Source of the DNA: Candidatus Gemmiger excrementavium
Lineage (GTDB): Bacteria > Bacillota > Clostridia > Oscillospirales > Ruminococcaceae
Direction of reading: 5' to 3'
NCBI GenBank assembly: GCA_019116485.1
Contig: DXBO01000009.1
Span: 1-37,616 of the forward strand
Length of the DNA: 37,616 nucleotides
Shown here one piece after another: positions 22,930 through 23,593 of this stretch; the stretch's first letter is position 1; each line of letters begins with the position of its first letter. The translations under genes were made by a program, and so were the position numbers. The notes under the pieces are model-generated. The model saw nothing but the letters and a program-made list of their open reading frames with translations. It was not told the DNA's origin and searched no databases.

Positions 22930-23025
22930 CTCCGGCGGATAGATTTTGACCGCATGCCAGACCGCCAGCCTGGCACCGGTTTGCGCCGCGCAAAGCACGG
23001 CGGAGCCTAAAATCCTAAGTTGCTC
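22930..23025 (-). promoter_or_regulatory. preQ1-III riboswitch upstream of queT
   Basis: Minus strand GAGCAACTTAGGATTTTAGGCTC...CGCCGTGCTTTGCGCGGCGCAAACCGGTGCCAGGCTGGCGGTCTGGCATGCGGTCAAAATCTATCCGCCGGAG. Loop GGCGG can pseudoknot with CCGCC directly abutting the SD GGAG, 7 nt from the queT ATG. Confidence 0.92.
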
Positions 23026-23148: not shown

Positions 23149-23232
23149 GCCGGTGTGTTGGAATTGGCAGACGAGACGGACTCAAAATCCGTTGGTGGTG
23201 ACACCGTGTGGGTTCGACCCCCACCACCGGCA
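23149..23232 (+). tRNA. tRNA-Leu (anticodon CAA)
   Basis: Acceptor GCCGGTG/CACCGGC-A, anticodon stem ACGGA/TCCGT with loop CTCAAAA, long variable arm, T-loop GTTCGAC. 3' CCA not encoded. Confidence 0.95.
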
Positions 23233-23234
23233 TA

Positions 23235-23275
23235 CAAAAAGCCCCCGGGAACTTAGGTTCCCGGGGGCTTTTCGT
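23235..23275 (+). terminator. tRNA-Leu transcript terminator
   Basis: AAAAAGCCCCCGGGAAC-TTAG-GTTCCCGGGGGCTTTT. Confidence 0.9.
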
Positions 23276-23320
23276 ATAGCCGTGGTGAGGGGGCGAACAG
23301 GGCGGCGCGCCGCAGCGCGC

Positions 23321-23347
23321 AACCAACAGTCCGGTGGACTGTTGGTT
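23321..23347. repeat. Perfect 12-bp palindromic hairpin
   Basis: AACCAACAGTCC-GGT-GGACTGTTGGTT. Confidence 0.85.
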
Positions 23348-23434
23348 AGCCAGCGGGAGACCCCATCGGCGGCGAAAGGTACGCGATGATAAGGTGCGGG
23401 GACGAGGCGCGCCGCAGCCCTGGGCCGTTGGGGT

Positions 23435-23593
23435 GTAGGGCGGGGTCTTGACCCCGCCGCGGGGCCCGGCGGCAGCCCGCCGCGCTGCCGTTTTTGCTTG
23501 TGCCGCCGTTGAGCGCCGGGAAAGCCTGCGGGCTGTCCGGGGGGGGCTGTGGCTGGGGCTACACGGTCCGGCGGGGTCAAGACCCCGCCCTAC
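23435..23593. repeat. 159-bp element bounded by 25-bp perfect inverted repeats (MITE/REP-like?)
   Basis: GTAGGGCGGGGTCTTGACCCCGCCG (23435-23459) and its exact reverse complement CGGCGGGGTCAAGACCCCGCCCTAC (23569-23593). Each arm is also self-palindromic. Confidence 0.75.

Follow-up and report, generated by a model that had tools for sequence, protein, structure and literature searches.

The attC sites of integron cassettes possess a central spacer, extrahelical bases and a variable terminal structure (PMC8946536), in the attP(+) site of CTXphi a forked hairpin arises from two attP sites that face opposite ways and are separated by about 90 bp (PMC3089051), and Ms6 uses an attB site in the T-loop of a tRNA (PMC1762012). 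Prophages, ICEs, genomic islands and PICIs that integrate at tRNA genes are characterized by a direct repeat of the tRNA 3′ end, a restored gene and a displaced native end, while MITEs and REP-like palindromes are short, gene-less, palindromic, multi-copy and presumably mobilised in trans. The units described here, one of which lies at a tRNA-Leu(CAA) gene in the window (the whole 37.6-kb stretch of DNA analysed), resemble both of the latter classes in these respects. In contrast to tRNA-integrating elements, they span only 140-175 bp, are gene-less, and include both a covarying fork and a tRNA end in inverted orientation. In contrast to MITEs and REP-like sequences, they enter one position of tRNA genes, carry long tRNA-derived direct repeats and adapt their sequence to the target; instead of terminal inverted repeats and the short target duplication of a DDE transposase, a single target position and direct repeats of 12-40 bp are found.

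Genome comparisons show, at the level of sequence, that a unit of ~140-175 bp inserts at the T-loop of tRNA and tmRNA genes, where it brings a replacement 3′ end and terminator, displaces the native 3′ end and terminator downstream, and repeats into arrays, and that it has crossed families. We consider it likely that the palindrome at tRNA-Leu(CAA) is the left part of such a non-autonomous, gene-less cassette, which would move by site-specific recombination via a folded single-stranded attachment site. The family seems to represent a so far undescribed type of minimal mobile element; no earlier description of it was found in the literature searched, the incomplete coverage of which makes this weak evidence of novelty.

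The original prediction of a palindrome across the tRNA-Leu terminator, extending from 23212 to 23298, identified a genuine feature and not a chance one. Its arms (23218-23252 and 23257-23291) are 35 nt long and 86% complementary around a 4-nt loop, and gapped extension recovers the full extent to 23212/23298. No other inverted repeat of this quality (at least 30 of 35 arm positions matching, loop of 3-12 nt) occurs in the window, and none was found in eight Markov shuffles of it. Folding of the palindrome region as RNA gives z = -7.1, with 0 of 200 shuffles equally stable. The palindrome is, however, only half of a larger module that ends well beyond 23298, running on to approximately 23372 as GAACA-GGGC-HP1-HP2-GCCA-GCGGGAGA and then a direct copy of the tRNA end that has decayed (Table 1). 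The ends of the window unit were assigned from homologous units, the limits of which are given by direct repeats and by an empty/occupied tRNA-Tyr pair. The orthologous tRNA-Leu in six genomes of the same genus has the same arm, with differing terminator stems, and the sequence 3′ of the arm recurs in those genomes behind other tRNAs. The window copy is probably an old, inactive and partly decayed insertion, inactivity being suggested by the broken last pair of its P0 stem (GGGC/GCCA) together with its decayed direct repeat; the CCCCATCGGCGG form of this repeat starts alike in several relatives.

Table 1. Parts of the tRNA-Leu(CAA) insertion in the window (junctions marked ^; a full stop denotes strand unassigned).
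Feature	Position	Strand	Remarks
Host gene tRNA-Leu(CAA)	23149..23232	+	ARAGORN call; 3′ end supplied by the inserted unit
Inserted unit, 143 bp	23218..23360	+	By homology; T-loop crossover GTTCGA^ to right end GCGGGAGA^
a, tRNA 3′ end from the T-loop	23212..23232	+	GTTCGACCCCCACCACCGGCA; first arm of the palindrome
Terminator hairpin	23236..23273	.	A and T tracts on both sides; centre of the palindrome
a′, imperfect inverted tRNA 3′ end	23275..23298	-	Extra base after CCCC relative to the tRNA
Forked-module covariance-model match	23285..23370	+	93.3 bits
GAACA	23295..23299	+	Left side of internal loop; invariant except fourth base
P0 5′ strand, GGGC	23300..23303	+	Family stem G-N-N-C, covarying
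HP1	23305..23320	.	GCGCGC-CGCA-GCGCGC
HP2	23321..23347	.	AACCAACAGTCC-GGT-GGACTGTTGGTT; 12-bp stem, 3-nt loop
P0 3′ strand, GCCA	23349..23352	+	
Right end	23353..23360	+	GCGGGAGA; crossover inferred immediately 3′
Displaced target	23361..23372	+	CCCCATCGGCGG; decayed direct copy of the tRNA 3′ end

Across the family, units are ordered as the new tRNA 3′ end (a), terminator, a′, P0 enclosing HP1 and HP2, GCGGGAGA and the displaced native tRNA 3′ end, and the part common to all copies reads GAACA-GNNC-HP1-HP2-A-GNNC-GCGGGAGA. Whichever tRNA lies upstream, the arm preceding GAACA is a reverse copy of its 3′ end, and the module is often followed by a direct copy as well; the best match is the copy’s own tRNA for 43 of 53 arms and for 38 of 53 right copies. 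Host genes comprise tRNA-Leu, Gly, Glu, Met, Pro, Arg, Ser, Lys, Val, Tyr, Ala and Asp as well as tmRNA. A same-strand tRNA lies within 330 nt upstream of 65 of the 105 copies, and no upstream tRNA on the opposite strand was found for module copies. For most copies inspected, the explanation lies in a tRNA, a tmRNA or a neighbouring array unit, or in an element that has inserted between these and the copy, and some copies sit behind displaced tRNA 3′ halves left by anticodon-loop integration; a few (e.g. L192, L116 and L095) have no recognisable tRNA within the sequence stretch examined. Many arms contain an extra base at the same place, between tRNA nucleotides 62 and 63, and about half pair perfectly, so the bulge is not universal. 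The pairing had been expected to be coincidental should the downstream arm belong to a dispersed repeat found away from tRNA genes. The arm is indeed part of a dispersed repeat, but this repeat is located where tRNA genes end, or where displaced tRNA ends lie, and its copies each bear the sequence of their own tRNA, so the pairing is not coincidental. Being a conserved half of a dispersed module, the arm is not the stand-alone decayed inverted tRNA copy that had been suggested.

A longer version of the module is found at L057 (1250-1530), L060, L065 (1450-1640), L115 (13560-13750), L136 and L138, with an extra conserved domain of ~150 nt (CTGCGCAGGCGACCGCCGCC...GGTACAGGGC), probably structured, between the arm and P0; this domain is possibly a second mobile repeat nested in the module. 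At L106 (132-531), an array of four modules with a 106-bp period lies behind tRNA-Ser and has an unrelated imperfect hairpin in place of the tRNA end and terminator.

In about fifty distinct examples, units are flanked by 12-40-bp direct repeats of the tRNA 3′ end, with unit lengths mostly of 137-176 bp. The repeat begins in the T-loop, reading GGTTCGA^NNCC in the tRNA and GCGGGAGA^NNCC or GCGGCTTGCGA^ATCC at the right end, and the native end, once displaced, usually then has its own terminator. At tRNA-Tyr, a natural pair is provided by two genomes: exactly 144 bp are present in the T-loop of G006 and absent from G027, the two sharing 90% identity across 1,382 bp upstream, with homology that resumes downstream and continues through the displaced native terminator. 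At tRNA-Glu, one native flank follows different cassettes in G026 and G034, and two cassettes stand in a row in G000 and G019. Tandem arrays are regular, with periods of 106 to about 320 bp and one pair at 595 bp. At tmRNA, a 149-bp unit and its repeats are identical at 175 of 175 letters in a pair of genomes from separate families. The tmRNA bodies of this pair are 88% identical (288/328) and the surrounding DNA is unrelated; metagenome binning errors could mislabel the two families, but could not create the contrast between unit and tmRNA. The empty and occupied tRNA-Tyr sites, the identical tmRNA unit across families and the regular tandem arrays together show that the units are mobile, and the tRNA 3′-end direct repeats, restored tRNA and precise empty site are those expected of a tRNA-integrative element. 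The proposal that the palindrome marks a tRNA-targeting integration scar was close to right, the feature being an integrated unit at a tRNA T-loop.

We propose that integration proceeds by site-specific recombination with an enzyme supplied in trans, and that the attachment site would be the unit itself, as a single strand folded into a forked hairpin. Here, a′ would pair with a to generate a double-stranded copy of the target tRNA end, crossover would take place at the inner end of the a′/a stem, beside the internal loop formed by GAACA and GCGGGAGA, and P0 with HP1 and HP2 would constitute the fork at the far end, while imperfections of the stem would select one strand and direction. The need for a′ to pair with a would explain why each arm matches its own tRNA. 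Among 26 diverse copies, 94.1% of cells in the a′/a outer stem, P0, HP1 and HP2 are paired, and double-sided changes are present in 94 cells, as compared to 29 in shuffles and 6-33 in slid controls. P0 occurs as GGGC/GCCC, GGCC/GGCC, GCAC/GTGC, GCCC/GGGC, GCTC/GAGC and GGAC/GTCC. Predicted DNA folding around the 144-bp unit gives the a′/a stem on both strands.

Integron cassettes are likewise small, occur in arrays and are flanked by an imperfect palindrome that forms a stem with an internal loop, unpaired bases and a variable end, the crossover lying at the outer stem’s inner end (PMC8946536). The topology and covariation of the module fit the attC fold, with the qualifications that not every arm has the extra base, although many do, and that the folding is predicted. 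In contrast to the attC core, RYYYAAC/GTTRRRY, the module core is T-loop/acceptor sequence that varies with each tRNA; integron cassettes usually carry a gene, whereas the units are without ORFs; and integrons have IntI, whereas the integron integrase model TIGR02249 has 0 matches above the cut-off in 35 genomes and the receiving site of the module is the tRNA T-loop. In CTXphi attP(+), opposite core sites flank a segment of comparable length and yield a forked hairpin with a stem that copies the target (PMC3089051). Correspondingly, a′ and a flank P0, HP1 and HP2, and the fork is predicted for DNA of both strands. CTXphi differs in targeting dif, using XerC/XerD and carrying a filamentous phage genome, whereas the module occupies tRNA/tmRNA T-loops and has no phage genes. 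Whether the family amounts to a previously undescribed, integron-like system of gut Firmicutes, in which gene-less cassettes would use T-loops as platforms, a tRNA-tailored folded single-stranded site, arrays, transfer across families and a missing recombinase, appears to us evenly balanced.

The same unit might instead travel in ordinary double-stranded form, moved by the tyrosine or serine integrase of a larger element, with the stem-loops acting as binding sites or end protection and a′ serving only as an inverted accessory core site. In favor of this scenario, tRNA T-loops are standard integrase targets, as exemplified by Ms6 (PMC1762012), and large serine recombinase elements, with genes ending in a T-arm mimic, are found at the same tRNAs. 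Those elements, however, cross over near CCA and not in the T-loop, the compensatory change in four stems far exceeds the need of spaced binding sites, and the requirement that a′ match the host tRNA is left unexplained; we therefore regard movement as double-stranded DNA as unlikely. The very stable fold, the strong covariation and the constant placement of the module on the tRNA’s strand would also be compatible with a structured RNA produced by read-through from the tRNA gene, e.g. one acting as regulator or decoy through the antisense tRNA end. RNA from either strand is expected to give an excess of one mispair type. Among 2,587 cells of 108 distinct copies, G-T mispairs are as rare as A-C mispairs (34 vs 31), while acceptor stems of nearby tRNAs, a small control, have 12 G-T vs 4 A-C; neither strand thus behaves as RNA, an indirect indication that the stems pair as DNA. 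Furthermore, Rfam contains no family matching the module, there is no RNA-type G-U wobble excess, and the module is situated past the terminator, bears the direct repeats of integration and, in a relative, is missing with a precise boundary, making an RNA role very improbable. An earlier suggestion that the structure affects tRNA 3′ processing finds no support either, given that the pairing looks DNA-level, the arm is located past the terminator and the unit is missing at the same tRNA in a relative (tRNA-Tyr).

A replication accident, in which fold-back template switching at the terminator hairpin produced the inverted tRNA 3′ end, could account for a perfect a-terminator-a′ palindrome matched to the tRNA, and a′ could first have arisen in this way at each new tRNA. 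Such an accident leaves unexplained the conserved P0/HP1/HP2 fork, GCGGGAGA, the direct repeat and the set unit length in several families, and for the whole unit it is contradicted by the tRNA-Tyr pair and the tmRNA identity. Template switching might fit a′ alone, but as an explanation of the feature we find it scarcely credible. Recombination through a folded single strand remains our preferred reading.

Such recombination would require an enzyme encoded outside the unit, which has no room for its own integrase gene, and no neighbouring gene is consistently linked to the copies; no link between XerC/XerD and the module was found. A tyrosine recombinase, P0001, located 0.6 kb from one copy, is present in 24 of the 35 genomes but not at other copies, and a second, 1-1.6 kb upstream of the L095 copy, is found in 16 of 394 genomes with a distribution that differs from that of the module; both candidates were rejected. 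Large serine recombinase genes adjoin several copies, where they belong to other elements at the same sites, and were discarded as mobilisers, since their elements are distinct ones that recombine close to CCA or within the module’s right end. At L114, L115, L125-L132, L190 and L201, large serine recombinase genes end in a tRNA T-arm/acceptor mimic (GGTTCGGATTTGG...GCACCA), so that the reading frame runs into the attachment site. At L264 (tRNA-Glu of G034), L237 (tRNA-Glu of G015) and L107, a serine recombinase element of ~21 kb lies at the module’s right end, which it appears to take as its integration site (GCGCGGG^AGATTCCC).

The covariance model detects copies in 34 of 35 genomes of Gemmiger, the genus of the window, with up to 13 each. 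Under the stricter filters of the family and order searches, with which weak copies are lost, copies are detected in 15 of 249 genomes of the family and, patchily, in 25 of 394 genomes and 19 of 169 genera of the order. A pattern scan of named genomes places the module mainly in Gemmiger and also in Faecalibacterium, Subdoligranulum and rumen Oscillospiraceae. The genome from which the window derives has five copies, namely the one in the window and four on contig C114. A search of IMG/VR with one strict pattern returned no match, and a viral origin was rejected, as viral matches to a looser pattern fail the covariance model and viral collections hold no true match. Two virome records (L072 and L073) contain the module with tRNA-Leu or a displaced tRNA-Ser 3′ half and no autonomous element.

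At ~145 bp and with no gene, the module would rank among the smallest site-specific integrative elements, and it would enter an essential gene class without breaking genes and cross family lines. If the folded-site reading is true, integration of single-stranded hairpins extends beyond integrons and dif phages, and tRNA genes can serve cassettes as integration platforms. The family is a tool with which to hunt the missing recombinase, it accounts for repeats and spurious tRNA fragments that follow tRNA genes in the genomes of gut bacteria, and its compact attachment sites lend themselves to genetic tools for a major genus of the gut.

Several further features lie close to the insertion. The sequence GGCGCGCCGCAGC, seen in HP1, occurs a second time at 23406-23418 of the window and may be what is left of a further unit from a decayed array. 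The repeat GTAGGGCGGGGTCTTGACCCCGCC, a perfect palindrome, is present in two inverted copies at 23435-23459 and 23569-23593, and this REP-like sequence also occurs near tRNA-Glu in L055 and L117. Divergent from tRNA-Leu, a PreQ1-III riboswitch (22930-23025, minus strand, 87 bits) is located upstream of a QueT transporter gene.
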